Positions 25,519 to 55,536 of a stretch of DNA of 64,000 nucleotides are shown in pieces. Within the stretch, counting starts at the first letter, position 1. Every line of letters begins with the position of its first letter. The notes under the pieces are model-generated. The model searched no databases. It saw only the letters and a list, made by a program, of their open reading frames with translations, and was not told where the DNA came from. The translations under genes and the position numbers were made by a program. Source of the DNA: Cystobasidium ongulense (lineage: Eukaryota; Basidiomycota; Cystobasidiomycetes; Cystobasidiales; Cystobasidiaceae); the NCBI GenBank assembly GCA_022835595.1, contig BQUP01000001.1:2666001-2730000 (forward strand), read 5' to 3'.

Positions 25519-26841
25519 TTACAGTTTGCGATATTGTTGTACGAGAAGACTGGCTACAGAGAAAGGCACTGGATGCAGTCGCCACCATCCTAGCTCTCGC
25601 CCGACCGGAAGAACTGTTGCCCACAACGTGACTAAGATGAAACTCGTGGTCCAGACTAAGACCAAAGCCTGATACACTAATTTGGGACGTTTACCAGACT
25701 TGTTGCTTGCAGGTGTATTCGCCTTGCCACGGAGGAACGCATCCGCCAGGCTTTCTAGAAGTATACCGACTGGCTGGAGCCAGAAGAAAGATGCCACTTC
25801 CAAGCGCAACTCGGTAGAGGAGAAAGTAGTGTCTAAGGGAAACGGCGGCACCATGCCAGCGTGGATACATCCACTCCAGAAGAAGGCTTGCCAAGTTACG
25901 ATCGTGTACCATAGTAAAGATCCCCTGGGGAGTTGTAACAGCGCGGCGAGAGCCAGACCTGGAGCCACCGTGACATATCTCAGATTTTGGTGCCAGAACC
26001 GTCCCCAGAATGCCCGTAGTCCCCAACCGCGAGAATTGATTCTCCATATCGAGGAAACGGGTCCGAACATGTTGTCGAGCACAACAGGCGATATCGACGG
26101 ATGGTAGCGCAGCGAAGAGAACGGTGTTATCGCGAGAAGAACAACGAGAGTCGGTAAATGTGCCAGTAGGAAGGAAGCTGCAGCGTAGACGTGAACGAAT
26201 AGAATGGCACCGTCCGAAAGAACGCTCTCTGTACTATTCTCGCACGCGTGCCCTCTACGGATGAGGCACGGGAAAAGTGTAGTTTCTTGGATAAGATAGC
26301 TTGTTATATCGAGAAGAATGAACGAGAATACAGCTCGCATCAAGGTGCGGAGCAGATAATGCGCGAATGTGTCGACGGTCTTTCGCTGGCGTTGTTTGTG
26401 ATCGTGTGTAGGATCTTGGATGAGATAATCGGTGAAGCGGATTGACACAATGAGTGTTGCGACCCATCTAATTCGTGGTAACAATCGAGGAGGGTAAGGC
26501 ATTTCCGCAGATGTTCCATTTGAGCGCTGAATGTGTAAGAAGTCGCGCCGAACGTCGTACCATCCGAGAAGGGCGAAGCTTGTAAGGGTTGTTTGCATAC
26601 TGATAACATCAAAAGATTGATAGCGCTGCCATATCATCCATTGCAATGCAATTATAGCTGGCAGGACGGCATAACGTGTAGTACGACATGACAGCTTCGA
26701 TGGCGGGACGAGCAAGCATGCGAAAGTGAAGTACACAGGGAGGAAGTAAGAGAGAGACCTAGGACCAGGCACTCGATGTAGAGTAAGATAATTGTAAGTC
26801 CCGATTGTTCGTTGCAGAGTATCTTTAAGCCAGTCGTGCAT
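25519..26841 (-). CDS. Multipass membrane acyltransferase, wax synthase-like (MBOAT superfamily)
   Basis: Intronless gene of 440 residues with about eight to ten hydrophobic segments. The motif LRAFWGRFWHQNLRYVTVAP matches the [S/A]-F-W-G-[R]-x-W-H-Q block of wax-synthase-like O-acyltransferases, and a candidate catalytic His lies in FWSGCIHAGM downstream. Such enzymes acetylate or acylate alcohols of secondary metabolites, sterols or glycans at ER/Golgi membranes. The start ATG at 26841 opens MHDWLKDTLQRTIGTYNYL. The stop is about 75 bp from that of the convergent GT32 gene. A glycosyltransferase next to an acyltransferase suggests work on the same glycoside or glycan, but this is only inferred from position. 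The absence of introns is unusual in this window. Confidence 0.82.
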   Translation of the reverse strand: MHDWLKDTLQRTIGTYNYLTLHRVPGPRSLSYFLPVYFTFACLLVPPSKLSCRTTRYAVLPAIIALQWMIWQRYQSFDVISMQTTLTSFALLGWYDVRRDFLHIQRSNGTSAEMPYPPRLLPRIRWVATLIVSIRFTDYLIQDPTHDHKQRQRKTVDTFAHYLLRTLMRAVFSFILLDITSYLIQETTLFPCLIRRGHACENSTESVLSDGAILFVHVYAAASFLLAHLPTLVVLLAITPFSSLRYHPSISPVVLDNMFGPVSSIWRINSRGWGLRAFWGRFWHQNLRYVTVAPGLALAALLQLPRGSLLWYTIVTWQAFFWSGCIHAGMVPPFPLDTTFSSTELRLEVASFFWLQPVGILLESLADAFLRGKANTPASNKSGKRPKLVYQALVLVWTTSFILVTLWATVLPVGRELGWWRLHPVPFSVASLLVQQYRKL

Positions 26842-27445
26842 GTGCGGTGAGCTAACGACGCTCGCGTTAGATCGCTAGGAGGTGGCTTCGAGGATCTTGG
26901 ACAACTTGACACTTGTTGTGAGTGCATTCAATGAGCAAGTCTGAACTTTGGGACTTTGGAAAGTATGCAGAGTATGCGGAAGAGCTGAGCATCTAATTAG
27001 CGCAGCAGGATGTGTAAGGCCTCTCGCCACAACAACGCCACCAAAATGGCCCGAAAGGCCTCAGCTACTGGATCATGGCGACAAAAAGTCAACAGTCAAA
27101 TGTTTGGCGCCTCTACCCGTATCTCTTCCGGCCCTCTTTCCTTTCCCTTCTGTTTGCATGTGTCTCCAGCTTTGCCTGGTCTCAAATCTTTCCCTCTGAA
27201 GGACATCCCTTCATTTGAAACCCGTAGCTTCAGCCAAGATGTCCTATATTCGACTTAGCTATGACCCAATCACAAGACTCGCGTCGGCGAGAGATGCACG
27301 GACGCTGATTTGGCTTTCTGTAGTTAAGCTGGTTGGATATCAACGATTTCCTATGCTGGTCTTGATATTGTTCTTGACGAGAATACAGCAATACTCTGTG
27401 TCGACGCGCGCAGCGTTTTGAAGCCTACAGCGATAGCTGTCTCGC
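26842..27445. other. Intergenic region with weak open stretches
   Basis: About 600 bp. On the plus strand an ATG at 27239 opens about 60 codons containing a hydrophobic segment (about 27300-27390), and an earlier overlapping stretch opens at 27010. Neither joins to a supported exon and neither resembles a known family, so I do not call a gene. Confidence 0.3.
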
Positions 27446-28142: not shown

Positions 28143-28482
28143 AAGCTCCAGAGGTGATCGACCTTGCTGTCCTTTTTGCTCGTGCCTCCAAGGTCTCGAA
28201 CAGCATAACATCTCCACCATTCCTAGGCAACTCACATGTGTATATTTCCTCAAGACTACGTGAGATAGACAGCGCTGGGACTACTCCTGCTTGCCCAGCG
28301 GCTGCTCTAGCGCAAGAGCGGCAACCGTCATCATCGAAGGCAGGTTTTCCGCCTTGAAAAGCTCAACACGCACAAGACCGTCCAGCAACGGCAAGCTGCT
28401 TCGAGACCGTAGACTACCTACAGAACAGCACCTCAAATTCAGGCTCTTTCCCTGACGGGTGTCGCTCAGCCTTCGCCGTACA
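28143..28482. promoter_or_regulatory. Divergent promoter, LYR-like gene / nucleoporin
   Basis: About 340 bp between divergent starts. The minus strand stays open into this region, so it may include the true N-terminus of the LYR-like protein. No specific regulatory site can be named. Confidence 0.35.
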
Positions 28483-31400
28483 ATGGACGTCACCCCAGCT
28501 CGGTCTTTAGCTGGAGCAGCGCGTCGCTCTCGGCGGCTGCAAGGCTCTTCAGGACACGCTGGAGGAGCTACAACAGCAACAGGATCCCCTTACGCTCGAC
28601 CCACGCTGAAGCGCGATTCGTCCTCGCAGATATTGGCTGCCTTGGAATCTGGCGGTCAGGCCAATGGAAGCAACAACGATGCAGTCAAGTTCGACCACAA
28701 GAAAACAGCAGGCACAGATGGTATCTTCGGACGCTTTAGACGTGGCCTTGGTTGGCTCGTTGGTCGACATTCAGACCCAGCTTCATTGGAAGCGGAGTCG
28801 ATTAGCGAGCTTGATGAAGGCAAAGGTGACGAAGAAAGCATGCTTTCAGGCTCGACACGCTCTCGCACGCGCGCACCTCCAGTAGAAACGCCTCGTGCAT
28901 CCAATAACTTCTCCCGAAAGCCGGCCATGTCATTGTCTAAGCGTGATTACGGAGGCACGCCATCGATTTTATCACACGACGGACAAATGGAAGGCGACGA
29001 GTCTTCAGCTGCAAAGAAGCTACGAACCTCCCACTCCACATTGAATTTACCGGCCAGAAGGTCATCTCCCCCCAAAACAACCAGGCGGGCACATGCATCG
29101 CTGGGATCTGATGCAAGTCGTGCAGTCAGCCCCAATAGGCCTCTATCGCCTCGGCTCGAATTGCCAGAAAGTCAAATAGCTAGCTTGTCTCGGAACAAAG
29201 CTAGCATCTTTGCCTCCGGACCTCTCGGCACGCCTTCATACAATAAGTCGAATGGTCATGCTGCATCATCACGGCGGTCTGTCTCGCCAGGTGGCATGTC
29301 CCAGTATGCATTTGCATCTCAGCCTACATCGGTCACCTCTTCGACTTTCGGACTGCAGTCACAATCGCCTTTCCGAACAGGCGGACATTCAGCAAGATCT
29401 CCTGATCTTGCGGCGCTCAACATATCGTCAGGATTGGCCCGATCGCCTTCACTACCCGCAAACAGGCTGCTGAGCTTACAGCAACAAGGCAGTCGTTTAT
29501 ACCCCTATCAACGATCGCCGTCAGCACTTTCTGGACTGGCGAGACCAAGTGCTATGGTTGCTTCACACTCCGTCGGAAGCGCTCTAAGCGGCCTCAAACG
29601 AGACCATCGAGCCGTATCGATGTCTCCGCCAAAGGTATCTCCAGGAAGGCATACCTTCTCCCGAGCTTCTCCGACTGGGACAGACTTCAGCTCAAACTTT
29701 AGCCATAGAAACAAGAGACAACGTGTTAGCGTTGCATGGCATCCGGAGCAAGGTTTCATCTCTACTGGTGCGGATGGGCATCCACTGCGGAATGATGAAT
29801 CGCCCGTGACCGTCCCAAAGAACGAAGCCGAGCGAATCTTGGAACGACTTGAGAATATCAGGCGGCCGCAAATTGACGGTCTGCGCAATTCGGTACGCGC
29901 GTTCCTCTCGGTTCTCTGCTGAAGTGTAACTGATTTGGCTTCCCGACGTATTTTGCAGAGCCCTCGAAGACTCAATGTGCCGCTACCAGCGCCTACGGCA
30001 GGCAGAGAATCGATTTTCGCGACCCGAATCAGTTCATCGCAAACAGAACCTAATTTGGCTGGATATGCTATATCACCCTACTCTAGGCGGCAACAAGCCT
30101 ATCGCGAGGAACGAGCTTTGCGGAGAGACAAGATCAACTCTCGCGGGGGACTGGGCGAGCATCTCCGTGCAGAGCATATGAGATCTCTGTCACCGCCATC
30201 TCATGCGACGCGCGACGATGCAGATGCGGATCAGATGGAATCTGCACACCCCGAAGAAGACGACGCATCGAACTTCGAGGAACAACAGCAAGATTTGTTG
30301 CCAAAGCCTTCGAACCGTAGAACGCGGCAAAGGACGAGAGAGCTCAGTGTCATGAGTGATACCAGCGTGCAGATGGACGGTGCGATGACTTCCCCTCGCC
30401 GCTCATCCCGTATACGAAAAAAGCCTGTCGAGGAGCCACTCTCCCCCAGGAGAGAACGCAAAAGCGCGAAATCGCCCCCTCCCACGACCAGTAAGCGTCC
30501 TTCCGGAAAGAGCAAGAGGCCAATACAAGCAGCTGCGGAGAACCAGAGCGATGTTGAAACAGAAGACTCGCATGCGTCCAGAGCTGCTTCACCTCGCCGT
30601 GCCAAGACCGCCGACAAGCACGCAGCTCATATTAGCAGAGCCGAGTCCTTCACAGTCGAAAGTCAGAAAGCGACAATCGACCAGGTCATTTCGCCGGCCC
30701 CGCCTGCAGAGACTCCATCAAAAGCCCAGACCAGTCAACGCGCAGAGAGCGCTCGTGAACAACGTCTACGCTCTACAACAGGGCCCAAATCGAGAGGCTT
30801 CTCCGCAAAGGACGACGAAGATGATCTCCTGCCCGCCTCCGCTGCGATCCCAGAGCAGCCTAAACTTAAATTGCCAAATTCTGTTTTTGCTAATCGCTTT
30901 AGCTTCGGACGTAGTCCTTCATCTAGTCTACTGGCTTCCCCCAATCCAAGTCCTTCGCACGCAGCGGACAAAGGAGCATCCTCCGTTGCTGGGTCTACAG
31001 CTAGCGGTAATGCAGTAGCATTGCCAAAGCTCGCCTTGCCTTCCTCTGCATTTGTATCGAACAACAACGCAACTTCGGCGGGACAAGCAGTAACTTCATC
31101 AACCACGAGCTTCACCGCGCCTGTGAAATACACACAGGCTCCTGCTGCCACAGCTCCCTCAAGTAGTGCAGATGCTCTTCCAGCTGCTGCTGGAAAGGCT
31201 GAAACGTCGAGCAGCAAGCCTCTCTTTGCCTTTACCGCGCCTGCAAATGATACTATCAAAACTACCCAGAGTTTCTTCCAAGCTCCAGCCAAGCAGCCGG
31301 AACCAAGTGCTGCGAAAGCGCCATCATTCTCCTTCGCTTCCAGTAATAGTACTCCGGCGCATGACAGTGCCCAGCCGGATGGGAAAGCTGCGCCGTTCAC

Positions 31401-32801
31401 CTTTGGCCAGGCCTCTAGCAAGAGAAAAGTGAGTCAGTCTGTCTTGCGATGCAGAATAATCGGCACTAAGTAAGCTTTTCCTTGCAATAGCCCGAGGAAG
31501 CGACTCCCTCATTCGCCTTCGGGAAGCCCGCGACAACTGCCATCAGTGACGTCGTGCCCGTTATCGATGTCACAAAGCCATCAAATCCATTTGCAGCTTT
31601 CCCCTCTTCAGGCTCTTCGACGCCGGCAATCAGCAATTCGGCGAAGCCCTCTTTCTCCTTTGGTCAGCCAGCGGATACTTCTGGCAGCTCGACTGGTACT
31701 GCCAATGCATCGACTACTACTCCAGGACTCTCGCCAAATACCTCGAATGTGCCGGCCTTCAGCTTCACTGCTGCAACACCAAGTGCTCCTTCTGTATTCG
31801 GTAGTACGGCTACAACTCCAGCGCAGACTGCTGGCGTGGACGGCATGCAGTCCAGTCCACCACCTGCTGCGGCTACGAGCGAAGTGCCTGCCAAAGCGCC
31901 TTTGTCGCCTGTGATACAGACCAGCAAGACACCCAGTTTCTCCTTTGGTCAGACTGCATCTAGCAGCAACAGCGTCCCTCCCATAACCCAGGCACCGACC
32001 TTTGCCTTCGGAGGCCAAGCGGCACCACAAGACGACACGAAGTCGAGGTCTGCCTCTCCTTTCTCTGTCGGTGCTCCAGCGCAGCCGTTTGCATTTGGCA
32101 GTAACACGTCAACAAGCAAGCCGGCTATGGGCGCCTTCGCATTCGGCGCTTCGAATGCAGAAGTCAAAGACGCAGAGAAACCTACTTCATCTGGCGGCTT
32201 CGGTTTCGGATTGGCGACATCAACGGCTGCAACTAGCTCTGCACCAGGCTTCTCTTTCGGTGCTGCCAAACCTGCCAGTAGCAATCCTTTTGCTGCTGTC
32301 CCTAGCACGCAACCTGTTGGCAACGCCTTTGGCTCGACGACCCCAGCGGCGACACCAAGCGTGCAGACCCCTGCTGCGTTTGGTCAAAGCAATATGAATG
32401 GCAGCAGCACGCCCTCTTTCTCATTTGGGGCGTCAGCTAACGGGGCTTCCGGCAATACATCTGCTCCCGCCTTCAGCTTTGGGGGTTCTAGCGCTACCCC
32501 TGCGGCGAGTAGTATCCCGGCTTTCTCGTTCGGTGCTGCCAATGCGCCGAGCTCCGCCCAGCCCTTTACGTTTGGCGGTGGTGCATCAGGTGTTCCCACT
32601 CCTTCGGCTCCCAGCGCAACTGCTCCCTCTTTCAATTTCAACGCGGCTGGCATACCTGGGACACAACCTGCTTCACCCGCTGGTACACCAACTGGCGTTG
32701 GTCCAGCAGGCGGATCTTTCTTTACCATGGGCGCTGGCGATACACCAACGAGCCCCAACAAGGCTCGCCGACCAGTCAAGCCATTAAGGCGTCCTCGGTA
32801 G
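28483..32801 (+). CDS. NUP1: FG nucleoporin, Nup1/Nup153-like (nuclear basket)
   Basis: Three exons (28483-29892, 29959-31428, 31491-32801) give 1396 residues. The N-terminus is basic, then IFGRFRRGLGWLVGRH (about residues 88-105) looks like the membrane-binding amphipathic helix of yeast Nup1/Nup60. A long Ser/Pro/Arg-rich disordered middle follows. From about residue 770 on there are many FSFG, FAFG, FTFG and GFGFG repeats in Ser/Ala/Thr spacers, the phase that binds importins. The extreme C-terminus, SPNKARRPVKPLRRPR, is a basic tail like the karyopherin-binding end of Nup1/Nup153. These three marks in that order are why I call it Nup1-like rather than Nup2 or Nup60; no Ran-binding domain is seen. 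Two antisense open stretches in the FG region are artefacts of codon bias. Confidence 0.85.
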
Positions 32802-34060: not shown

Positions 34061-37000
34061 ATGGAGGACCAAGATCATCATGCCACAGCTGTTCAAGCAG
34101 AGGGACGCAAGCCGTCAACAGGGCAGTCATCTGGCTTCAAGCTGCCCCCTCCTACAGCTGCAACAGTTGCGTCCTCTGGCTTCAAGCTTCCTCCACCCAC
34201 ACCTGTGGGCCAGTCAGACGATTTTCAGCCGCTTCCAGCAGAGTACACAGATGCAGGCGCCTCAGTGCCATTGCCACCCCCAACCGGCCTGACGGGGCAA
34301 ATCGAGCCTGGAGATAGAGATTCTGGGATGTTTACATTCAGTAGACCTGGAACAAGAGCAGGAAATTCGAGTTATTACGCTGCACCTGGATCTCGCTTGA
34401 ATACGGGATATGGGTTCGGCTACGGCAGTGATGGCTCGCGATTAAATACCATGGCAGGCGGTAGACCCCTTACAGCGTTCGCAATACCAGAAGAGCATGC
34501 TGGTTTTGACTCAACAGTATCTCCAGCTGCTGCATACGCCGCCGCACATCGCGATGGACAGCCGTACTTGCCGCCAACACGCGGATCCTTGAGGACACCA
34601 GTCATCGAGCTGGACGAGAGGATGCAGAGCGCTATTAGCAGGCTTAGCGGAGGCGACGAGCTCGATGACGAAATGAGCTCTCCCAACGGATCTGGGAAAA
34701 CCGAGTTCGAGTAAGCTTGACTAAATTTGCCCAAGGTTATAAGAACGAGAGAATAGCCAAAACTGACCAACTTGTCTCGCTTTCGCTCGATGTAGAGTGT
34801 ATGGAGCCGATGGAAGACCTCTATCACGCATGTACGATGGGGAGCAAGACGACATGTACAAGCTGGAACAGATGCCAGACACGCTCGAAGGGCAGGATCC
34901 TGACAATTTCTTTGAAGACGAAGAAGACTCTCCTTATCCAGAAGTTCGAGCGAGTGTTAGCAATTTCGACGATCCGGAGATGCCTTGCCTAACCTTCAGA
35001 GCTATATTGTTGGGCGTCACGTTCACACTTCTCGGAGCTGCGGCGAACACTTACTTCTACCTCCGTTATCCTGCACCACTGCTTACTCCGATCGTGGTGC
35101 AAATCATCACTTATCCTTTAGGTGCGGGACTGGCTCGTATCTTGCCCGTCACCTTGTACGACACTCCAAAATGGCTCCAGAAAATGGGCGCTTCGTCCTA
35201 CTGGTCTCTCAATCCCGGTCCGTTCAACATCAAGGAGCACACCGTCATAATTATCATGGCAAATGTCGGCATCGCGCCCTCGTTCACGCAAAGCATGCTC
35301 CTGGCATTAGACAAATTCTACGAGATCAAGACAGGTTTCGGCTATGATATCCTACTGCTCCTAAGCGTCAATACCGTCGGTTTCTCGTTTGCTGGTTTCT
35401 GCAGAAGATTCCTTATCTGGCCTGCAGCGCTAATCTGGCCTCAGACGCTTGTGACATGCACCCTCCTGAATACCTTCCATGCTGAGGACGATGATGCCGC
35501 GAGTGGTTCACTCACTCGGTACCGCTATTTTCTTTACGTCTTCTTCGGCGCCCTGGTGTGGTACATCGTTCCTGGGTATCTCTTCATCGGACTCTCAGCT
35601 TTCTCGTGGGTGTGTTGGATTGCGCCAAGTACGTGTTCGTCTCCACCGTGTTCTGAGCAACACACGCTCATGGACATTACATCCCTATAACAGCCAACCC
35701 GGTCGTGAATCAGCTCTTCGGCATAGTAACAGGCTTAGGCATGAGCAGCATCACCTTTGATTGGTCGCAGATTGCGTACATTGGATCGCCTCTCATTGTG
35801 CCATGGTGGGCCATCGCAAATATCTTTGTGGGCTTCATCGTCCTCATCTGGCTCTTCGCTCCCATCATGTATTACACCAATGTCAGTCTCTCACCGTCTT
35901 TGCGCGTGAGGGGTCTATACTGAACTTTCTCCGCGAATACACAGACATGGGATCTGGCGTATCTTCCAATCTCGGTAAACGCGGTTTTCGACCGCTATGG
36001 ATCAGAGTACAACGTCTCTGCTGTGCTCACCCCTGACCTGCGACTGGATGTAGATGCATATGCGGCATATTCTCCTATGTTCTTCCCTTCCACATATACG
36101 GCGATTTACGCCTTAGCTTTTGCGTTAGCGACCTCGTCACTAGTGCACACCGTTCTCTACTACGGCCCGACCATGTGGCAGACGTTCGGCGACATACAGA
36201 AGGCCAAGACCGATGTTCACGCAAAGCTCATGTCAGCCTATCCGGACGTTCCAAACTGGTGGTACGCTGTCACTTTCGTCGCATGTGCGGCGTTTTCTAT
36301 CGGATTTGTGGAGGTACGCCAAAGCAGACAGACGTTCGCGCGAGGGACATGCTAATCCATGCATCTTTCCCTCCCAGGGATACGACACCGGACTTCCTGT
36401 TTGGGGCCTGCTATTAGCAGGCCTTGTCGTCGCAGTGTACATCATCCCGGGAGGGTACATATATGCGTTGTCATCACAAGCTGTACGTATATGCCCCCTT
36501 AAGTAGACTGCTGTAGACTGACGTGGCTCTTCACAGCTTACCGTGAACATTATTGCCGAGATCATCCCTAGCTACCTGTTCCGCGGTCAGCCTGTGGTAA
36601 ACATGGTAAGCCCAGGACATGACACTAACATCACTCTTCACCACTGATTCTTGCTGTAGCTTTTCAAGGCATTTACTGTTAACTCACTCCAACTAGGGCT
36701 TTATTATATACAAGATCTTAAATTAGGTCATTACATGAAGGTTCCACCTCGTGTGACATTTTCCGGTATGCTCGTCATTTGGTTCTAGGGTGCATAAACT
36801 GACAACATGGATACATAGTCCAAATCACCGCCACGGTCCTGGCTGCCTTCGTACAGGCCGGCATGAAGGAAGGTCTCTTGAAAGGGGTGCCCGATCTCTG
36901 TTCCCCAGACCAGGCAGCCGGATTGTCTTGTCCCACCACAAGAGCGATATTCAATTCCTCAATCGTCTGGTGAGTTGAAGCTGTTATTTTGTTGGCCGAG

Positions 37001-37633
37001 TAGACTGTCTGACACTTGCATACCAGGGGTCTTATTGGCGCGCAACGCATTTTCGGAGATGGATCGCCTTATTCTGCCTTGCTCTGGGCTCTGCTCGTCG
37101 GCGCTGCGCTACCATGCATTTTCTGGGTGATGAGCCGATACTTCAAAGCCCGGTGGCTTCGCCTTGTCAATATTCCTGTCATGCTCTCAGGTCTGGTACT
37201 TATTCCTCAAGCTACTGGCCTCAACTATGCGTCTTGGTTCATCCTAGGGTTCATCTTCCGTAAGGCTTCCCTTCCACCGGATGTCATGTGTAGGCTATGA
37301 GCACTGAACCTTCTACTGCACTCAGAATTTGTGTTGCGGCGGTACCGCTTCCGCTGGTGGTCCAAATTCAGTTTCATTACCTCGGCTGGCTTGGATTCTG
37401 GCACCGTCATCAGTACTTTGCTGGTCTTCTTTGCCCTACAACTACCAAAGAATGGTGGGCTACGCTTGAACTGGTGGGGGAATCTCGTGTATAGAAATAC
37501 ATACGATTGGCTTGGGTACCCTTACAAACTACCGTACGTTCAGCTGGCTTGTGTTTACTAAAAATGCCGCTCTTTTGCTGACTTTTATCTTGACAGGCCT
37601 GAGGAAGGATTTGGACGTCCGACTTGGCACTGA
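34061..37633 (+). CDS. Oligopeptide transporter, OPT family (copy 1)
   Basis: Proton-coupled plasma-membrane importer of small peptides. Eleven exons (34061-34710, 34796-35628, 35694-35881, 35945-36313, 36378-36482, 36537-36605, 36660-36765, 36819-36969, 37027-37259, 37326-37533, 37597-37633) give 982 residues. A 270-residue cytosolic N-terminus is Pro/Gly/Ser-rich and ends EDEEDSPYPEVRASVSN. The transport core follows: DDPEMPCLTFRAILLG, WSLNPGPFNIKEHTVI (OPT signature NPGPFNIKEH), FGYDILLLLSVNTVGFSFAG, LIWPQTLVTCTLLNTFHAED, GLGMSSITFDWSQIAYIGSP, VPNWWYAVTF, QDLKLGHYMKVPPR, VPDLCSPDQ and NYASWFILGFIF. It ends PPEEGFGRPTWH. Six consecutive internal exons have exactly the same lengths as in the convergent paralogue. 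The substrate is not readable from sequence; the Kex2-type peptide gene lies 416 bp downstream. Confidence 0.93.
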
Positions 37634-38049: not shown

Positions 38050-38989
38050 CTACCAACCGGGGCCTCGACTGTAATTCAAAACCATCAGCGACAATTGAGA
38101 AGACTTGGTGTAACAAGCAGCGACTCACCCCCATCCTCCTCGGACAACGGGTGTTGTAGATGGCTCCTCGTCACGCTTCCAGCCTGGTCCTCGTCTGTAA
38201 CAAATGAAGAACACGATTAGGACGATGTGAGTGAGACTCGTGTAGGTATGCTAGAAGGGATTTGCGTACCCCCATCCTCCTCGTACGACAGGAGTTGTTG
38301 CTGGCTCTTCGTCGCGTTTCCAGCCAGGGCCACGGCTGAGAATAGATGTTCGTCAACAAAGCTGTCAATTGGCATAATGCTTGATATTTACTCACCCCCA
38401 TCCTCCTCGGACGACAGGAGTTGTTGCTGGTTCCTCGTCACGCTTCCAGCCAGGGCCACGGCTGCAGAGTGAGCAGGTACATGTCAACCAAAGCCCTCAT
38501 CTGGCGGGTTTTCATTATCATAGACGTGTTTGACTCACCCCCAGCCACCTCGCACAACTGGGGTTGTGGTGGCATCATCGGCTTCGGCACGCTTCCATCC
38601 GGGGCCACGGCTAGATAGCTAGGATCAGTACAACGATTCCTGCATACATAGTGTAGAAGGAAATGCTTACCCCCAGCCACCTCTAACTACTGGTGTAGTG
38701 GTAGGTGTAGCATCGTCGCGCTTCCATCCGGGACCACGTCTATCGATCACGATCCAGTCAGCTGCTGCGTGATATGCGGGAAAGACGCTCGTAGGTGCGA
38801 CTCACCCCCAGCCTCCTCTAACAGCGACAGAGGTAGTCGTAGAGTCGTCTCGCTCCTGTTGCCAAAAAAGGGCGGTCAGTGCTTGTCGCCGTGCTGCTCA
38901 TCCCGGAAAAGGAAAGAGCCTACCTCGATGACGGGGGCAGCGAGAACGGAAGCAACGAGCCCGAAGAGGGCAGCGACGGCGAGCTTCAT
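38050..38989 (-). CDS. Secreted Kex2-processed repeat peptide precursor (pheromone / quorum-peptide-like)
   Basis: Eight exons (38924-38989, 38806-38855, 38671-38739, 38539-38610, 38396-38461, 38270-38335, 38129-38194, 38050-38068) join in phase to 157 residues. MKLAVAALFGLVASVLA is a clear signal peptide. Six copies follow of the core VRGGWGRGPGW, five of them followed by Lys-Arg. Each is preceded by an acidic/Thr-Pro spacer (DDATPTTTPV, AEADDATTTPV, DEEPATTPV twice, DEEPSTTPV; the first is ERDDSTTTSVA). The last copy ends in Trp directly at the TAG, so Kex2 plus carboxypeptidase trimming would give identical Trp-ended peptides from all copies. All internal introns are phase 2 and fall inside the Gly codon of W-G|R, so each middle exon is one repeat unit. 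There is no Cys and no CaaX box, so this is neither a disulfide nor a farnesylated pheromone. Function is unproven. Confidence 0.85.
38129..38855 (-). repeat. Array of exon-intron repeat units in the peptide precursor
   Basis: Six tandem units of about 126-143 bp, each an exon of 50-72 nt plus an intron of 60-77 nt (unit starts at 38129, 38270, 38396, 38539, 38671, 38806). The exons at 38396-38461 and 38270-38335 differ at five positions, all synonymous, while introns have diverged far more. The pattern is internal tandem duplication of an exon-intron module kept under protein-level selection. Confidence 0.85.
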
Positions 38990-41282
38990 TTTGCAATATG
39001 GGTTCTCTTCTGTACGAGTGGTTTAACGAATGTTCTTCTTTCCTTGGGAGTAGTAGCGGAAATGGGTGGAGATGAGGGAAGCGAAGTCAAGAAGCAACGA
39101 ATGCTCTGGGTTAAGCGTTCTCGCTAGCTTGAGGAGCCAGCTTTCTCAGCGTTAATTTTCCCCAGCGAACCGCGAGTGGCCCTCAAGTTTCACCAGGCAT
39201 ACCTGGCATGCCGAACACCGTACAAAAGTCTGAAAGTGGCGGGACCGCCGAACACCTCATTTGCCTTTCGATTGGATCACACAGCGTGGCTGCATGGCGA
39301 TTTTTGAGGTAATAAGGTTGGAACAGGTGTACGCTTTGAAACCTTAAAAGACGCGTTCGTGGGCGCCAATCAGTCCATCAATTATCGTTAGCCATGATGT
39401 GTCACCTGAGCAGAGATTTACAAAAAGGAGAAGAACCGCAAGCTTTGAAGATCTCCCTAGCGCGACATATACAGTTTTCACGACCACCATCTTCAATGGA
39501 CAGAGTTCAAGAGGTTCAGCCTCTTTCTAGCCTGGAGTCTGTACTGTACATGGATTGAACCGGGCTGGCTACCATTACCAGAGAAAACCGTTCCGTTACC
39601 GTATACGGTATTTACCGTATCACCCGAAAGCCGCAACCGAAAAGGTCACCCGCGACACGGTCTCAGCTTATCGGATCCAGTTCTTCAGAGCGTGAATGCA
39701 CCGCGTACTTATTAGTAACTACCACAATAATACGGTAGTATCGCCTACCAACTGTGCACCGCAAAGGAATTTCCTGAACCAGGGTAGTTCTCATGATTTG
39801 GGAACCGACGCGTACAGGACCGACAGGACACGGTACCCACATGTCAGCAATAAATTACGGTGCTAGCATCATAATGGGTTCATAATGTGATATCAGCTAC
39901 CAAGATACGGGAGCACTGTGTAGATTTGGTCCAAAGATCATCGAGCACACCACAGCAGTCAATGCGGTCTAACTCACTTTTGGGAAAATTGGTTTGTGCC
40001 GCATTCGCTGTCCGCAGGTGCCAGCATACGGTACGGCAAATCTGTATCCGAAATGACCATTGAGAGAGGCTACATAATGCGGTGTCAGGTAGGTCCCTAG
40101 GCATCTGTTAATGATTGGACACGCAAATTCTAATGTTGTTTCCGAAGTCCTCGCTAATCACAAAGAGGGCTCGCATGTGGTATCCTGACCCTAGCACAAG
40201 GCCCCAGGTGCTAGTACCAGTGTCTGGCACTTTATGCCAGCTGTATCTCTGGAGGCAAAGCTGCCCAACTTGCGTTGGTTGCACAAGCATACGGTAGGGT
40301 ACGGTCCCCTTGATACCGTAGAGAAGGCCGCGAGAAAGTCGACTTGTCTTGAAACCTGTATTTGGACTGTAATGCAGTTATTACTGTGGCCACACTCCTG
40401 TTTGGCTTTTCTGCAGGAAATGCAATGGCATTAAATTTATTGCTGTGCACCATCTGATGCCTGTGACAACTTTAACCTACCAGAATTGCGACAGGTCAAG
40501 TCGAGATTGACGTGTGGTAACCTTCTTCGCCGAAGCGGAGGACCGCTGTCAGCGTGACGGTAACTTAACTTACTTGCTCGCGTCAGAAACGTCACGCCCC
40601 GCAGTACAATCGAAGTGATCGTACCCAGCCCGGTATCAGATACCGGAGTAATGAATGGATGGCATGGAATGGCGTGCGCCACCACAGCGTGGGCTCCGTC
40701 CAGAGTCCATGATTCAGCGCAAAGACGCTTCCGGTGCGCTTCGCACGGCTGCGGCTTGCATGCACCATTTCTGGGGTCGCAAGATTTGTAAATCGTCTCG
40801 TCACTGGCTGTGCTGCAGCATGAATACCGTACAGTAACACTCTAATTTGACCATATAGCGGCCATCGAACAAGTCAAGTTCTTCAGCTATGCCCTTGCAG
40901 AATGAAAGAGTCCGCAGGAGCAGCTTACAAGTGTGTTTGTTCGGCACTACTAATTTCACTTTTCGAATTTTGGAACTCCAAGTTCTCGTTGCTATTTGTA
41001 GGGACGCGCTAACACCTGCTTGTCAGACTCTGTTTCGAGCTTGTTCCGAAACCTTTCAGGTTGCATTTGTTGAGCATTTGTGGCCCTTCTAGACTAGGAG
41101 ATTTCGTAATACAATACATCTTCCCAAAGGTCCGCTCGTACCGCATGAAAACCGAGACAGCCGGAACGTCGCAAAGAAGGACCATCTTGCCTCTAACACA
41201 GTGATAGCAGCGAGAAAAACAGATAGAGAAGGCTATTGTGGAGACTGGTAACAAAAACTGTTTCGACAGTTGTTTCCATAAC
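38990..41282. other. 2.3 kb gene-poor region between peptide precursor and OPT copy 2
   Basis: No supported gene. The first about 300 bp upstream of 38989 should be the peptide-gene promoter. From about 39598 to 40830 the heptamer TACCGTA or its complement TACGGTA recurs unusually often (listed separately). Short open stretches on both strands are unsupported. No terminal repeats, transposase-like reading or tRNA signature was noticed. Confidence 0.5.
39598..40830. repeat. Cluster of TACCGTA / TACGGTA heptamers
   Basis: The heptamer appears about eight times in 1.2 kb: three overlapping or adjacent copies at about 39598-39620 (palindromic TACCGTATACGGTA followed by TTACCGTAT), then near 39731, 40026, 40290, 40314 and 40825, with several near-matches (GGTACGG, CACGGTA) between. 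A given heptamer pair is expected about once per 8 kb, and I noticed only scattered copies elsewhere in the window. It could be a transcription-factor site cluster or the remains of a diverged repeat. Confidence 0.5.
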
Positions 41283-44200
41283 TTATGACCATGCTGTTGG
41301 GCCGAAACCTGCTTCAGGAGGTGCTGGACGCAAGGGTCGTCAATCATGGCAGATACTCGCGCAAAGAGAGACGCAGCGAATGACTCACTTTTGAAACTTA
41401 TGCCTTCCCAATCCGCCGTCTTCTTGTAAACATTGTTACCCCACCAGTCCCTAGAAACAATTTTCAAGTGTCAATACGTGTTCTGCTGGACATAATACGC
41501 AAGTACACTATACTAACGGTTGCAGGTTTCCAGCTTTTGGCAGCTGTAGCGTAAGGAAGAAGAAGAAACCCCCCAAGATTGTTCCGCTTTCCAATCCTGC
41601 TGAAGTGATGAAACAAAATTTTGACCACCATCGGAAGCGGAATCGTCGGAGTACATATTCTGTGCAAAGTGCGAGGGCCCGCAAGCAATATCAATACAGC
41701 CTCTTATTTAGCCAGAGTTGGCCAAGCGACTTACGGAACACGAACCCCACAAGAAACCACGACGAGTAGTTGATCCCCGTTCCAGGTGGAATGTACGAGG
41801 CGCCATTCAAGAGGACGGGGATGTTGACATATCTGACCCAAGATCGAGGATAGCGGCGGCTAAGCAGGTAGAATGGGATGGGCAAGAACGCTCCTACAAT
41901 AGTGAAGTAGAGGAGTGGATGATAAATAGAGTTTCGGCCGAAGAAACGGTCTGGTCCTATAGCTCCCCTATGAACACATATTTCCTTCGTTAGCTGAGGG
42001 ACATTCATGTTCAGCAAGCCATGCTCACCAGATGACCGATGCTTCGAACAGCACGCTCGATATAGGACATACCAAGAGTGATTTCTGGTCCGGGCTACAC
42101 AAATCCGGTATAAAGGTCGTCAATGCCTTCTTGGCTGCAATCTGAGATCCTGATGCTACGAGAATTGAAAAGACCTGAACTGCAAGGGTGATCGTCCTGC
42201 TCAACTCATCTGAACAGCCGTAACTCTCCACCAGAAACTCACCCCCGAATGTTATCCTGGGAGGGATCTTCATGTAATGGCCTAATTTGAGATCTTGCAC
42301 GAAGATTAACGCAGAGTTGAGGGTTTGTATACTGTAGATCTTGAATAGCTACCATTTTTATTGTGGTTAGCAAAGTCTAGCTATGATGGTAACAGCCGGT
42401 CTTACCATATTAGCAATAGGTTTGCCGGGAAGCGCGTAGCCAGGAATCGTCTCGGCGACGAGATTGACAGTAATCTTACAGTCTTCTTGTTAGTGAAAGC
42501 CAGCGTACAATTCAGGAAACACTACGACTCACAATTTGACTCGTTACAGCGTAAATAAAGCCACCTGGTAGAACGTATGCGGCTCCTAACAGGATCGAAA
42601 TTAGGAAGAGCCACACAGGTAGTTGAGTTTCGTATATCTGTATGAGGGGACGCAAATGGTTCATTGACAGTCTGATCAATGGCGCGTGAGCCTGCCTTTA
42701 CCTCTATCAAGGCTATGGCCAAGGAAGTAGACACAACAAAGCTAGCCCAGTACCACCAGTCCGGCACTTCAGGATAGTTCCTCATCAACTTCGCATGCAC
42801 ATCTTCCATTTCCGTATGCGCGTTCTTGTACTTGAGATATATATCTTTCCCGTTGTATATGATGGTATGCACGATAGCAGCGGTCGCCAGAGTGAAGCTG
42901 AGAGCATAGACGGTGGTATAGGTTGTTGACATGAAGAGCATAGAATATTCTTTATAGCCCTCGTCGTTCAGAACGATATCGGCTGATATAACTCGCGAGA
43001 TATTGTAGGGCTGTCCCCAACGGTCGAAATTGCCATTCGCTGAAATAGGCATGTAGGCAAAATTCCATGTCTATGAGTTATTCGACGCTGAAAGTCAGCA
43101 AGATGCGCAGACGTGCTTGAACGTACGCCAACTCACGTTGGTATAGTAGAGTATAGGAACAACAAGCCAGTACAGGAGAGCAAAGCCGAGAAAAATGTTG
43201 CATGCAGCCCACCATGGGCAGATCAAGGGGGAGCCGATATAGGCTATCTGGGACCAGTCAAATGTCAAACCGGACATGCCCAGGCCGGAGACGATGCCGA
43301 ACAGCTGATTGACGACTTTCGCCCGTGGCGCCATCCAGCACACGAAAGAGAAAACGGACAGGGCTTTAAACAGAAATCCTGATTTCCAGGGACATGAGAA
43401 CAAATGATTAGCTCCAGGTTCCCTAAACGATCACGAGAAAGCAAAAAAAACCAAAGAAGCGCCCACCTGGCAGAATATACCACACAGCGGCTGCACTCAT
43501 GACATAGGCGAGGTATTTGAAGCGGGTAAGAGAACCATCTGTTCCATCATCGTCTTCTGCGTGAAAAGTGTTGAAGACTGTACAGATGACCAGGTTTTGC
43601 GGCCATATCAGGGAAGCTGGCCAGACTAGATATCTTCTGCATATGCCTGCAAAGCTGAAACCAATGACGTAGGTGCTGATGCAGCACAACCAGTCGAAAG
43701 TCAAACCTTTGGGAACGCCATAGAACTTGTCCATGGTCAGGCTAAACGCGAGAGAATAAGAACTGTTCAGACTCATGTTTGACATTATGACAATCACGGT
43801 GTGTTCCTTGATATTGAATGGACCAGGGTTGAGGGACCATTCCGAGGGTGCACCAACGAATGTAAGGAAGCGAGACGTTTTGAAAGTTCTGGTTGGAAGG
43901 ATGTATGCAAGAAGCTTGCCAAACGGATAAGTGAGGACTTGTGCGGTAAGAGGGGTGAAATACGGAAAAGGGAACCGAATGCCATTAAAAAATGTGACCA
44001 TACTGCACACGATGACACTCGAGCAGCCAATGTATAGCGCTCTGAATGTGAGACAAGGCATTTCTGGATCATCGATATTCGAGACACTTGCGCGGACCTC
44101 TGGATAGGGCGAATCTTCCTCATCTTCCAGCTCAAAAGGTTGGAACGAGTCTTTCAGACCATCCATTCCAGGTGTACTTCCCACGACTGTCGATTCCATG

Positions 44201-45507
44201 CCATCTTCGGTAGCGTAACGGCCGGAAGTAGGATATTTGAGGCCCCCATCACGTGATTCTATACCAATACCAATCTTACTGTCTAGTCCGGATTCCATCT
44301 TGTCGAAGCTATACTCGTGCGATGCATTGGGGAAGTCGCTCTTCGCTCCTGGGCTCTCTGGTGAAGTCCAAGAAGCAGAGTTTCGTCTATCGATAATTCG
44401 CTTACTTTCGTCATGCTCACTATAAGTCTTCGTCATACGGTGGCGAACAGTCTGAGGCGTTTGAGGGAGGTATGAAGCGTTGCGAGTCTTGCCAACATCG
44501 ACGTAATGCCGAGAGTACTGATTGTTGCCGTTGTTGTCGTTGGCAGGAATGCCATATGAATCTTCTGGGTGGAGACCATATTCTGGGGGATAGCTAGTCG
44601 TCATGGAGGATGCCTGTCTCTGCCTGTCCGCAAGCTCAATGACAGGCGTGTCCTGTCGAGAGGTGCTATTTCCGCCAGCTTGTGGATACCTGGGAGCAGT
44701 AGTGTATACGGGTGATCCCGGATACTGATAAGGCTGTCTACGCTTCTGAGTAGCGGCAGATTCGGGAACATCACTTGAATGGAACTGTACGGTTTGAGAC
44801 TCTTCCGGCTTGTCGCTTAATTTACTGGAAACAGAGTGCTTGCTAGATTGATAGTCGAGAGCTACCTTTTGGGCATCTGTCATGCTCGCCGCACTGCTGA
44901 TAGTCTTATCTTTCGGCTTCAGCGGTGCTGCATGATCCCAGCCTGACCTCACGGCCGTTAGAGGTCTGGATTGGGCAGTGTTGGTGGTACGTTGCTCGCC
45001 GGAGGTATAGGGAAGAGCAATGATGTCTTCTGTATCTGCTGATGTGATTGTAGTCGCGCTTTGAAGTGGGTGTGTCTGCTGCGCCGAGAATTGATGGGCA
45101 GGAAGAAGTACGCCAGGGGCTGGGATGTGGGACGATGCAGGCAGGCCTGATGGAGAAGTAGCTTGAGCTGTCTGTGAAGGCGGCATGAACTTGAATAGAT
45201 CCTCGTCGCTATCATCTTCCTCCTCCTCCTCCTCGTCTTGTCCATCATCGAAACCTTCGCCCAAATCTTGTCCGTTGCCATGCTCAGTGGGAATTTCATC
45301 TCCATCTTTGGAATGTGGATGGCGAGAGTGAGCCTTCAAGCGCATCATATCGAGGGTAGCCTGATCCTGTGCTTCCATAGTAGCGTACTGAGGAGTGTCA
45401 ACGCTGCTGCTTGCATGGCCAGCGTGTGGATTGCTTTGCGGGTGTTCCTGTACCGCCGCTTCTTGCTGCTGCTGGCTCGCTCGCTTCTTGCGAAGCGCTC
45501 CAAACAT
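41283..45507 (-). CDS. Oligopeptide transporter, OPT family (copy 2)
   Basis: Paralogue of the OPT at 34-37.6 kb, on the opposite strand and pointing toward it. Eleven exons (43467-45507, 43137-43378, 42702-43070, 42533-42637, 42406-42474, 42243-42348, 42029-42179, 41735-41967, 41518-41659, 41389-41450, 41283-41323) join in phase to 1186 residues. The cytosolic N-terminus is about 470 residues, Ser/Gln/Asp-rich with an acidic run EEEEEEDDSDED. The boundary motif EDEEDSPYPEVRASVSN is shared with copy 1. The core shows WSLNPGPFNIKEHTVIVIMS, GFSFAGICRRYLVWPASLIW, VFNTFHAEDDD, GLGMSGLTFDWSQIAYIGSP, VPDWWYWASF, QDLKLGHYMKIPPR and NYSSWFLVGFVF. It ends PPEAGFGPTAWS, matching the copy 1 tail. Six core exons have identical lengths to copy 1 (369, 105, 69, 106, 151, 233 nt). 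The exon equivalent to 37326-37533 is split by an extra intron here. Confidence 0.93.
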
Positions 45508-47218: not shown

Positions 47219-48654
47219 ATGCCTCAATCAATCAAATACGCGACTGTAGACGGTCTAGATATCTACCTAGACTTCGTTATACCCGAAACAGCAACTAAAG
47301 AAAAGCCAGCTCCTATCTACTTGTGGTTCGTACGTCTCGCTGTGCTAAAAAAGAGCTGCGCTTCGAATGACCGCGCACAACCTGCTTGCAGCTGTTCTAA
47401 AAACTGATTGATCGGTTCCACCCTATGCAGCACGGAGGCGGACTTCTTCAGGTATGTCCACTATTCTCCCCTCCCCCGTAAGAGATTGACTGAAGGTTAT
47501 CTGACGATAGGGCACTCGCAAAGGTGTGTAGGATCGTTCGCCACGTGGATGTCTCCACAAGCGCCGTGGGCATCCGCACGGCATGTACTGAAACAGTATT
47601 TTGTGCTATACAGGCTTCCCACATCATTGGGAATCAGCCTCTTCCAAGCATGGTCTTTGTACAGTCTCAGCCGACTATAGATTAGCACCTCAAGCTCGCT
47701 TTCCTGCTATCATGCAGGACTGCGCGAATGTGATGAGCTTCTTGCGCTCTGAAGAGTTCGGAAAAGCTACTGAAGGGCGAGTAGATCAGTCAAAAATTTG
47801 CGTCAGTGGAGGCTCCGCCGGTGAGTGCGCCTTATATTGCTCTCGGCAGAAGTTCGTAGACTCACCTCCCATACCTTCTCAAACAGGCGGCTGGCTCGCT
47901 CTTCTTGTCGGTCTTGGAGTCGGCTTTGAGGCATGTGGAATAACTCCACCTGCCGCACCTACATCAATTGCTGCGATCTACCCAATTTCCGATCTAAACG
48001 ATCCGTACGTGGCACCTTGAAAATAGATTCGTGACTGAGTAATTGACTGCATGATCTCTTCTCATCCAGCTTCTGGCACACGAAGCAGCATCCGGTATCT
48101 TACTGGCCTAAAGTCATTAAGGAAGAGGAGCTCAAGGAATACCTTGACCCCAACCAACCTGTCTCCGCAGAGTCTTCGCACGATAGCCCTCGAGCCATCT
48201 TCTACCATTATATGGTCCAGGAGTGAGTCGTGCATGTTCAAGTATACGTGAATTGGTCTAATGTAAATACCTACAGGGGCATCCTGGAAGACCTGCTACT
48301 CAATGGTACTGGTATAGACCCTACTGCTTTCAGCGTCGCCCCCGCTATCAAGAACGGCAAAGCACCACATCCCAATGTGCCAACGTTCATTGTGCACGGT
48401 AGCATAGACGACAAGGTCCCCATAGTACAAGCTGAAGACGTAGTGAATGCAATGAAGGAAAAGGGATTGTTTGTTGGTAAGCTGCGGGCTATTTGAGCTT
48501 TGTGAAAGCTCGGAAGCTGACCACGCATTCGATCCTCATTTGACTATCCCCAGAATACGAGCGAGTTGAAGGCGCCGACCACCTGTTTGATAGAGAGCCA
48601 CAAAGTACCATGGACCAGATGTACGCTTTTATCAAGAAGCAGTTCGGCATGTAA
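47219..48654 (+). CDS. Alpha/beta hydrolase (HSL / abhydrolase_3 family)
   Basis: Carboxylesterase or lipase-like enzyme. Eight exons (47219-47329, 47431-47451, 47511-47523, 47614-47820, 47887-48004, 48070-48222, 48277-48476, 48554-48654) join in phase to 307 residues; exon 3 is 13 nt and exon 2 is 21 nt. The oxyanion-hole motif HGGGL spans exon 2, VSADYRLAPQARFPA follows, and the nucleophile elbow is SGGSAGGW (Ser). The acid is Asp in VHGSIDDKVP and the catalytic His is in EGADHLFDRE. HGGG plus Y-R-L-A-P is the hormone-sensitive-lipase type. There is no signal peptide, so it is probably cytosolic. The substrate is unknown. A link to the peptide locus is possible but unsupported. Confidence 0.88.
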
Positions 48655-49998: not shown

Positions 49999-51850
49999 AT
50001 GTCTGCCCTCGAACGCGTCAAAGAACTAGGTACCTCCATTGCAGGAAAGGTGAGCTTGACATGGTTCATGCGCGCACAAGGCTTGACAAGTCCCACACGA
50101 GCTCTGCTGATCAGTTGAGCTTTCTTCATGCAGGCTGGTAAAGCATACATCTGCACACCATTTCCCAACGACGTTGTCATCTGTGAGCCCACACTTCTGC
50201 ACCTCACGCCCTCCGTGCCTGCCTCTGTCTGTACAGCTAGACATGACTGAACTCGTTCTCTTTCTGGAACAGGCGCCGCTGTCAGAACTCCAATCACGAA
50301 AGCTAGAAAGGGAGGTCTCAAAGATGCATGTCCCGAAGACATGCTTGCTGCTGTTTTCAAGGGCGTCCTGCAGAGAAGTGGTATCGACCCTGCTCTTGTC
50401 GAAGACGTCGCAGTAGGCAATGTACTACCACCTGGCGGAGGAGCCACGGTCGCACGAATGGCAGCTCTATATGCTGGACTACCCAATACTACGGCTGTCA
50501 ACACTCTCAATAGACAATGCTCCTCCGGTCTCGCCACTGTCGTCCAAATCGCCAACGAGATCTCCACAGGACAGATCGATATTGGAATTGGTGAGTAGTC
50601 GGGAACTGTAGACTTGAAGAGCCATCATATCTGACTCTGATCTGTCTTTAGGTGCTGGAGTTGAGTCCATGACCATGGGATTCGGTGCTGGCGCCATGCC
50701 AGAGCATATCAGTGAAGAAGTTTCAAGCAATCCCGAAGCTGCAGACTGCTTGTTGCCCATGGGTAAGCTGACTTTTTTCCATATCTTCAGAGCTAGTATA
50801 GCTGACTTGCTAGTCCTGTGTTAGGTATCACAAGCGAGAACGTGGCAAAGCAATTCGGCGTTTCACGTGCTGCTCAAGACAAGTTCGCTGCTCGCTCATA
50901 CAATTTGGCCGACGCAGCTCAGAAAGCCGGCAAATTCAAGGACGAAATTGTTCCTGTCAAGACCAAGTGGGTCGACTCCAAGTCAGGAGACGAAAAGACC
51001 ATCACTGTCACCGAAGATGATGGCATCCGATCTGGTGTTACCGCCGAAAGCTTGTCCAAGGTCAAGCCTGCCTTTGCCAAAGACGGTACTACTCACGCTG
51101 GTAATGCTTCGCAAGTCTCCGACGGAGCTGCTGCAGTTCTCCTTGCTAGACGCAGCGTCGCCCATAAGTTGGGTCTGCCCATTCTTGGCAAATTCGTGAC
51201 GGCCGCTGTTGTCGGTGTACCACGTAAGGATACCCGCGTACATCAAGGATCATAAACATCTCCGGACTGACCACGTTAACACACAGCCAATGTAATGGGT
51301 ATCGGTCCGGCTTTTGCCATTCCCAAGGCACTCGAGAAGGCAGGAATTTCACAAGACGAGGTCGACTTATTTGAAATGTGAGAGCAACTGAAGACTTTCA
51401 TGCGAGTGCAGGATTCTGACTGGCGTTGATCATAGCAACGAAGCCTTTGCTTCCCAAGCAGTCTACTCTGTCGAAAAGCTCAAGATTCCCTTGGAGAAAG
51501 TCAACCCAGTTGGAGGGTAAGTTTACGTCGGCACTGAGTCGCGACAAAACACGAATTAAACTGGTCATACCTGCAGTGCTATCGCGTTCGGACACCCTCT
51601 TGGTGCTACCGGCTCTCGTCAAATCGCTACTGCCTTCTCCCAATGCAAGCGTACTGGGGCGAAGGTCTTTGTCACCTCCATGTGAGCTACCTTCTTTTAC
51701 GACTTCCGTGAACGCCTGACTGACATCTATCTCAATTCCAGGTGTATTGGATCAGGTTAGCTAAATCTCTTTCCGACTTTCCGTGAACATCTGACTAACA
51801 TTTGCATTACAGGTATGGGTATGGCTGCAGTCTTCGTCAATGAACAATAG
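49999..51850 (+). CDS. POT1: 3-ketoacyl-CoA thiolase (beta-oxidation)
   Basis: Last enzyme of fatty-acid beta-oxidation, cleaving 3-ketoacyl-CoA with CoA to acetyl-CoA. Ten exons (49999-50049, 50135-50183, 50273-50590, 50652-50762, 50825-51223, 51287-51377, 51436-51516, 51577-51681, 51742-51755, 51813-51850) give 418 residues, the length of yeast Pot1; exon 9 is only 14 nt. Catalytic motifs are intact: nucleophile Cys in [19 protein letters not shown], the base His in [13 protein letters not shown], and the second Cys in MCIGSGMGMAA. The N-terminus [20 protein letters not shown] sits where peroxisomal thiolases carry a PTS2, but RVKELGTSI lacks the usual H/Q at position 8. It is called POT1-like from length and similarity; peroxisomal location is likely but not proven. 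Confidence 0.93.
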
Positions 51851-55400: not shown

Positions 55401-55536
55401 ATATTCTGGGAAGGAAGAATCATGGTATACTCGCTCTTCTGTAGCCCCTCCCAGCCTGCTCGATGCAGTCCCGATAACACAGGAGGAAATACGAAAGAGC
55501 AGGTCTCGAAATACTGTTAGATTTGCGGACTTTTAG
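52446..55536 (+). CDS. Single-pass membrane protein with Cys-rich start, acidic ectodomain and PP1-docking-like tail
   Basis: Not assignable to a named family. The main exon is 52811-55536; an upstream exon ending at 52686 joins it in phase via GTAAGT and TTTTTCGACAG. The junction frame contains six Cys in a short span (KCAQETAC, QECDTDGKDCKAFC, MKC). The start is uncertain: an in-frame ATG lies at 52446 but gives a very basic N-terminus with no signal peptide, so an earlier exon is probably missing. Next come Ser-rich runs, a Thr/Glu-rich ectodomain and imperfect acidic HTE-type repeats (about 53800-53930). One transmembrane helix, TAIAVGCAGVAVFMILVILA, is followed by KLTKVFNRRSR. The cytosolic tail is about 450 residues, Ser/Pro-rich, ending RSRNTVRFADF. 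The layout suggests a wall-stress or mucin-like sensor. Confidence 0.65.
53800..53935 (+). repeat. Imperfect acidic His-Thr-Glu coding repeats
   Basis: Short imperfect units of about 15 nt around GATCACACAGAAG encode D-H-T-E type repeats with spacers of two or three acidic or small residues, just before the membrane helix. A poly-Ser run (about 53118-53170) lies upstream in the same exon. Both are coding low-complexity tracts likely to vary in length between strains. Confidence 0.7.

Follow-up and report, generated by a model that had tools for sequence, protein, structure and literature searches.

The closest described counterpart of the locus reported here is the Qsp1-Opt1 system of Cryptococcus neoformans. 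In this yeast, the peptide gene QSP1 (CQS1, CNAG_03012; PMC8561399, PMC6687208) is adjacent to OPT1 (PMC2848560, PMC3618354), and one inversion touches both genes (PMC3618354). OPT1 (CNAG_03013) encodes an oligopeptide transporter (OPT) which is required for Qsp1 transport (PMC8092252). Qsp1 has 11 residues, contains Gly, and ends in a C-terminal Trp (PMC5959062). It is secreted as a pro-peptide, matured extracellularly by Pqp1, and inferred to act intracellularly after Opt1-dependent import (PMC7537855). In a 64,000-nucleotide stretch of Cystobasidium ongulense DNA (contig BQUP01000001.1, positions 2,666,001 to 2,730,000; referred to as the window), we analyzed a gene for a Kex2-processed repeat protein (KEP) that lies between two intact OPT genes, named OPT-A and OPT-B. 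The KEP gene is real and selected, its precursor is of a known kind but forms a new family, and its pairing with the OPT genes is the notable part of the locus. We put the probability at roughly 0.5 that it encodes a secreted autocrine peptide, which is released from an alpha-factor-style multi-copy precursor and re-imported by the neighboring OPTs.

The KEP gene is located on the minus strand at 38989-38050, and its eight joined exons encode a precursor of 157 residues. The gene model was built on splice signals, the reading frame, and the relatives described below. All seven introns (60-77 nucleotides) run from GT to AG, and in each of them one or more branch-like sites, loosely defined, lie 12-41 nucleotides from the 3' end. 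The precursor begins with the hydrophobic segment MKLAVAALFGLVASVLA, which was assigned by inspection as a predicted signal peptide, and continues with APVIEER and six units, each closing with the core VRGGWGRGPGW. Units 1-5 are followed by Lys-Arg, while unit 6 stops directly after the Trp, with the end of the stop codon at 38050. As a qualification, copy 1 is preceded by Glu-Glu-Arg and not by Lys-Arg. The spliced translation agreed with the earlier note on this DNA, which had described the same span, the eight exons, a signal peptide, and six copies with five Lys-Arg sites and a last Trp-stop.

The lengths of exons 3-7 are 69, 72, 66, 66, and 66 nucleotides, all divisible by three, and the introns bounding them are positioned inside a Gly codon of the core (GGWG/RGPGW, the slash marking the junction), so that two exons encode each core. 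Because these exons are multiples of three and are bounded within the same Gly codon, the gain, loss, or skipping of a copy keeps the reading frame. The repeat number presumably grew by duplication of these frame-neutral exons. The likeness of the introns was considered as a mark of recent exon duplication and was dropped, since the aligned intron identities between the repeats (0.65-0.85) were not separable from those of shuffled introns (mean 0.71, maximum 0.89).

The six core copies are identical in amino acid sequence. At the nucleotide level, 9 of the 33 core positions vary across the copies, representing at least 15 changes, and none of them alters an amino acid; the chance of this is about 5e-9 if the changes are random and independent. 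As all nucleotide variation in the core is synonymous, these results indicate that the core peptide is under selection. The spacers that follow Lys-Arg are variable, reading DDATPTTTPV, AEADDATTTPV, DEEPATTPV (twice), and DEEPSTTPV.

The precursor showed no Pfam match at 0.001, no PDB sequence match at E 1, and no NCBIfam match above the cut-off (one weak hit had 14.3 bits compared to a cut-off of 44), which was in agreement with the earlier proposal of a Kex2-type repeat precursor outside the known families. Four core strings gave no match in the open-access literature. When the whole genome (19.77 Mb, 19 contigs) was searched with the precursor protein, six match rows were obtained (E up to 10; three first-look candidates), all of them within the KEP gene, and no second KEP locus was found by this search. 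Judged by its repeats and Lys-Arg sites, the precursor is a KEP of a family for which we found no report. Its secretion and its cutting by Kex2 are strongly predicted.

Eight relatives of the precursor (P0001-P0008) were found by protein searches of environmental sequence data, each of which scored the 8000 candidates sharing the most words. Five of them, namely P0001, P0003, P0004, and P0005 from the source 'merc', which we take to be an assembly of marine transcripts, and P0006 from the source 'lgn', are free of an intron at the core junction. These five carry the cores VRGGWGTRPW, V(R/A)GGWGMTRPW, and AGGWGYTRPW with Lys-Arg sites, together with additional spacers such as DEALEKR. P0001, P0003, P0004, and P0005 also contain no intron sequence at the equivalent of the first junction (PVIE/ER), and the splicing of the KEP gene is supported because these four proteins read through the equivalents of both junctions. 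The other three, P0002, P0007, and P0008, appear to derive from close relatives of the gene as fragments that retain introns; P0007 is a weak member (E 1.3e-3 in one search and 0.057 in another), and the match of P0008 is confined to the signal peptide, with an E value of 2.8. A further search with an alignment of six sequences (that of the window and five relatives) retrieved no new member.

Counting the precursor of the window, eight of the nine proteins contain a total of 22 GGWG copies, of which 18 reach a Trp followed by Lys-Arg (15 copies), by Lys at the end of the fragment, by Lys-Lys, or by a stop. In the remaining copies, the sequence ends right after GGWG (three) or reads TRPR (one). 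The relatives retained the GGWG...W-Lys-Arg frame, and the middle of the core was altered. Most of the Lys-Arg sites were kept, as was the frame of the core, and their loss among relatives, which the earlier note had named as the outcome that would speak against its proposal, was not what the data gave. The Arg before GGWG is replaced by Ala in some copies, so that cleavage at this Arg is not a conserved feature. The order of the repeats in the assembled environmental proteins may be scrambled.

The segments after Lys-Arg start with DD, AE, DE, DE, and DE, and none of the five starts with X-Ala or X-Pro. Ste13 trimming of the alpha-factor kind is therefore not predicted, and the dipeptidyl trimming at X-Pro/X-Ala that had been suggested for this precursor was not borne out. 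The products of copies 2-6 are likely 20-22 residues long unless another protease shortens them. The same segment starts bear on the explanation that the gene encodes a basidiomycete mating pheromone of the alpha-factor type, sensed by a Ste2-like receptor. The precursor plan is alike, and a KEP with an alpha-pheromone-like, Trp-ended peptide is found in the basidiomycete yeast Trichosporon oleaginosus (PMC6339444). Considering that X-Ala and X-Pro are absent right after every Lys-Arg, and that the genome showed no match to a Ste2-type receptor (PF02116; the search was uncontrolled, as the control genomes were also silent) while a Ste3-type receptor (PF02076) was found by the same method on contig C18, we regard a pheromone of this type as very unlikely.

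The four distinct peptides predicted from copies 2-6 are hydrophilic, with a grand average of hydropathy of -0.67 to -1.09 and a net charge of 0 to -1, whereas the Rep1 peptides of Ustilago maydis are hydrophobic. This difference, and the tight amino acid conservation, which suits a recognized ligand better than a coat, make a structural, surface-active, or antimicrobial peptide like Rep1 an improbable product of the gene, even though the logic of a multi-copy precursor is common to both, Kex2 products of Rep1 are attached to hyphae (PMC6339444), and its peptides form amyloid-like fibrils (PMC9769878). A signal peptide and Kex2 repeats are also the plan of dikaritin precursors (PMC9769878), and the gene could accordingly be read as the precursor of a cyclized, modified peptide, that is, a dikaritin-like ribosomally synthesized and post-translationally modified peptide. 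There is no Tyr anywhere in the 157 residues from which a Tyr core could be formed. UstYa (PF11807, DUF3328) gave no match genome-wide, where the control genomes were silent as well, or among the 10 window proteins selected for a Pfam search, and the Pfam scans of selected window proteins showed no sign of a peptide-modifying cluster. The neighbors of the KEP gene are transporters, and such a modified product seems scarcely credible.

Our gene models of these transporters were guided by splice signals and the alignment of the two. OPT-A and the KEP gene run toward each other, their stops 416 bases apart, and OPT-B lies upstream of the KEP gene on the same strand, 2293 bases from the KEP start codon. 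OPT-A matched PF03169 with 604 bits over profile positions 1-622 of 623. For OPT-B, the open reading frame (ORF) over the first exon scored 148 bits, and the later exons matched in the genome profile search. The identity of the two proteins was 54% over 714 residues in BLASTP. The whole genome contained at least 10 PF03169 matches, for which all 9 first-look candidates were scored, and the rows were grouped into three genes (four rows for OPT-A, four for OPT-B, and two for a gene on contig C2). In tblastn at 1e-3, neither OPT-A nor OPT-B matched the third gene, in a search where the window, used as positive control, gave both; the largest ORF of the third gene matched OPT-A with 24% identity over 82 residues (E 2e-4) in direct BLASTP on a two-sequence set. 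This weak match is as expected for a distant member of the same family, and the third gene, which lacks NPG and KxPPR in all six frames of its locus, is probably of another OPT subfamily. An attempt to place OPT-A and OPT-B relative to C. neoformans Opt1 by the residues P358, M484, and W932 (PMC8092252) gave spacings that did not match cleanly and was not used.

Of the OPT genes that we found, the two that carry NPG and KxPPR motifs both adjoin the single KEP locus. The motifs NPG and K-I/V-PPR mark the peptide-transport clade of the OPT family. The chance that a given gene touches such an OPT pair is approximately 5e-4 (about once in 2000), a post hoc estimate which assumes 6000-7500 genes. 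Because two OPT genes flank the KEP gene, the reading moves from an alpha-pheromone-like signal to an imported peptide of the Qsp1/Opt1 type. The alpha-factor-type logic of the earlier note thus stands for the multi-copy Kex2 precursor plan, while its functional side is shifted by the flanking OPT genes, which had been overlooked.

The position of the OPT genes might instead be a coincidence or reflect shared regulation of secretion and peptide scavenging, in which case the gene would encode an ordinary KEP of a basidiomycete, and its linear peptide would have an extracellular action, via a surface receptor or on other organisms. In Basidiomycota, KEPs occur commonly, at a mean of 5.30 per strain, while the mean for Tremellomycetes is 1.00 (PMC7329392). 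Moreover, Trp-ended KEP peptides were detected in Agaricomycetes, and the knockout of six KEPs in Coprinopsis cinerea led to no apparent phenotype (PMC9769878). On the other hand, the sole locus that matches the KEP gene has an OPT gene on each side, together two of the three detected in the genome, the same layout is present in QSP1-OPT1 of C. neoformans, and the Ste2 search of the genome was silent, as were its control genomes. We therefore consider a purely extracellular role possible but doubtful.

In the reading that we favor, re-import by the neighboring OPTs, the signal peptide would take the precursor into the secretory pathway, where Kex2 would cut after Lys-Arg and a Kex1-type carboxypeptidase would strip both basic residues. 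Up to six linear peptides would be freed, those of copies 2-6 having 20-22 residues and a Gly-Trp end, such as DEEPATTPVVRGGWGRGPGW. The calculated neutral monoisotopic masses are 2123.02 for this peptide and 1183.60 for the core. The peptide could be imported whole, or after extracellular trimming to a shorter Trp-ended form, for example the 11-residue core. Uptake would proceed through OPT-A/OPT-B, and the peptide would have an intracellular action like that of Qsp1 in C. neoformans, most likely on transcription. Secretion, Kex2/Kex1 cutting, the mature ends, uptake, an intracellular target, and a quorum role are thus what we infer for this peptide.

Several observations weigh against this reading. 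The peptides best known as OPT substrates are shorter. OPT-A and OPT-B are paralogous, so that their two positions do not represent two independent events, and the adjacency of KEP and OPT is known from one genome, as the relatives are protein fragments without neighborhood. The exact, uninterrupted codon pattern for GGAYPW, the end of Qsp1, was not found in the genome. The comparison with Qsp1 also assumes that the host is not too far from Cryptococcus. The best PDB match of an acetyl-CoA synthetase fragment among the 18 distinct chains listed was 5ifi, presumably from C. neoformans, with 347 of 467 residues identical (74%). Together with the Ste3-type receptor, this match points to a basidiomycete as the likely host. 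Furthermore, the processing route differs, since the Cryptococcus precursor is matured by Pqp1 and not by Kex2 (PMC7537855), and the Trp end is a weak resemblance, as Agaricomycete KEP peptides are also Trp-ended (PMC9769878). Taken together, the KEP locus may work like Qsp1-Opt1, and may perhaps be related to it, and we do not assign the peptide as Qsp1.

Profile searches of the genome gave one P_proprotein (Kex2-type) P-domain match, and one DPPIV-type gene (matched in two exons). The Gti1_Pac2 family, which we take to be the WOPR family, to which the Qsp1 effector Liv3 belongs (PMC7537855), was found at two loci. The region upstream of the KEP gene contains a cluster of TACCGTA sites. The window has 12 such sites, a count which was reached in 0 of 100 shuffles, and 8 of them are located in 38990-40930, compared to 0.12 expected from the rest of the window. 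Paired TACCGTA/TACGGTA sites gave 37 rows genome-wide, compared to 25 for the reversed pattern, with palindromic pairs counted twice. It is plausible that the cluster is a putative binding site of a regulator. The coordinates of all these features are collected in Table 1.

Table 1. Features of the KEP locus and of the OPT genes. Positions are those of the window except for the gene on contig C2.
Feature	Position	Strand	Basis
OPT-A: 982-residue oligopeptide transporter, 11 exons	34061..37633	+	PF03169; NPGPFN and KVPPR motifs
KEP exon 8: rest of copy 6 (..RGPGW), stop codon	38050..38068	-	Translation
KEP exon 7: rest of copy 5, Lys-Arg and spacer, first part of copy 6	38129..38194	-	Translation
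KEP exon 6: rest of copy 4, Lys-Arg and spacer, first part of copy 5	38270..38335	-	Translation
KEP exon 5: rest of copy 3, Lys-Arg and spacer, first part of copy 4	38396..38461	-	Translation
KEP exon 4: rest of copy 2, Lys-Arg and spacer, first part of copy 3	38539..38610	-	Translation
KEP exon 3: rest of copy 1, Lys-Arg and spacer, first part of copy 2	38671..38739	-	Translation; repeat families
KEP exon 2: Glu-Glu-Arg and first spacer, core copy 1 as far as its intron	38806..38855	-	Translation; GT..AG introns
KEP exon 1: start codon, predicted signal peptide, APVIE	38924..38989	-	Translation; comparable stretch also in P0001, P0003-P0005, and in P0002, P0007, P0008 (these apparently not spliced)
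TACCGTA site cluster upstream of the KEP gene	39597..40831	.	8 of 12 window sites; three within 23 bases at 39597-39619
OPT-B: 1186-residue oligopeptide transporter, 11 exons	41283..45507	-	PF03169; BLASTP; NPGPFN and KIPPR motifs
Third OPT gene	C2:2980293-2982160		PF03169; without NPG and KxPPR in six frames of the locus

Elsewhere in the window, matches to MBOAT_2 (25522-26874, minus strand), an alpha/beta hydrolase (47592-48017, plus strand), and thiolase (50806-51252, plus strand) were obtained, as well as a weak match to the chitin synthase N-terminus at 20074-20976 (minus strand), which at 20.3 bits was below the cut-off. Several long ORFs are located at 28456-32801 (plus strand), the last of which carry many FG-type repeats (SFSFG, AFAFG) and are FG nucleoporin-like; the first of these ORFs, the one scanned, had no Pfam match. 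The ORF at 52615-55536 (plus strand) is rich in Ser, Thr, and Glu, contains a hydrophobic segment, had no Pfam match, and includes a tandem repeat at 53803-53918 with periods of 15, 30, and 60 nucleotides. A tandem repeat of 21 nucleotides with 4.2 copies was found at 62719-62807. At gathering thresholds, no Rfam family matched any part of the window.

Many alpha-factor-like repeat precursors are present in basidiomycetes, although these fungi use mating pheromones of a different type. To the question of what such repeat peptides do and how they are sensed, a KEP between two OPT importers provides a concrete, testable answer for one family, namely secretion followed by re-import. If this is true, the quorum peptide system of Cryptococcus would gain a wider family and a possible origin. 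We tentatively suggest, as a possibility only, that the KEP gene and QSP1 derive from one ancestral peptide-OPT cassette, whose multi-copy Kex2 precursor later became single-copy in Cryptococcus, where the Qsp1 precursor is presumably single-copy. With such a common cassette, one class of basidiomycete KEPs would be imported rather than sensed by receptors. No report of a Kex2-type counterpart of Qsp1 was found in the accessible parts of the literature on Qsp1 with Kwoniella and Tremella, and a link between KEPs and oligopeptide transporters was not found in the accessible main texts of the KEP literature (PMC6339444, PMC7329392, PMC9769878), whose supplements may list the gene.

Compared with known systems, the gene shares with the Saccharomyces alpha-factor precursor a multi-copy, secreted, Kex2-cut plan, whereas it has no dipeptidyl signature right after Lys-Arg, encodes another peptide, and is accompanied by no Ste2 match in an uncontrolled search of the genome. 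The KEPs of Coprinopsis, Lentinula, and Pleurotus with Trp-ended peptides are alike in signal peptide, repeats, Kex2 sites, and Trp-ended product. The gene differs from them in its core, its lack of a Ste13 signature, its exon-per-repeat structure with an intron in the core, and its OPT flanks. The T. oleaginosus KEP is likewise a Gly-rich KEP of a basidiomycete yeast with a C-terminal Trp, but it has two Cys and a Ste13 signature (PMC6339444), and the precursor described here has neither. Compared with the Qsp1 pro-peptide, which is matured by Pqp1 outside the cell, the precursor is six-copy with Kex2 sites, the peptide gene has two flanking OPT genes, and we could show no identity of the core with mature Qsp1 beyond the Gly content and the Trp end. 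Nevertheless, as in Qsp1-Opt1, a small, predicted-secreted, Gly-containing peptide with a Trp end, here with an 11-residue core, comes from a precursor that needs cutting, and its gene stands beside OPT genes, here OPT-A and OPT-B.
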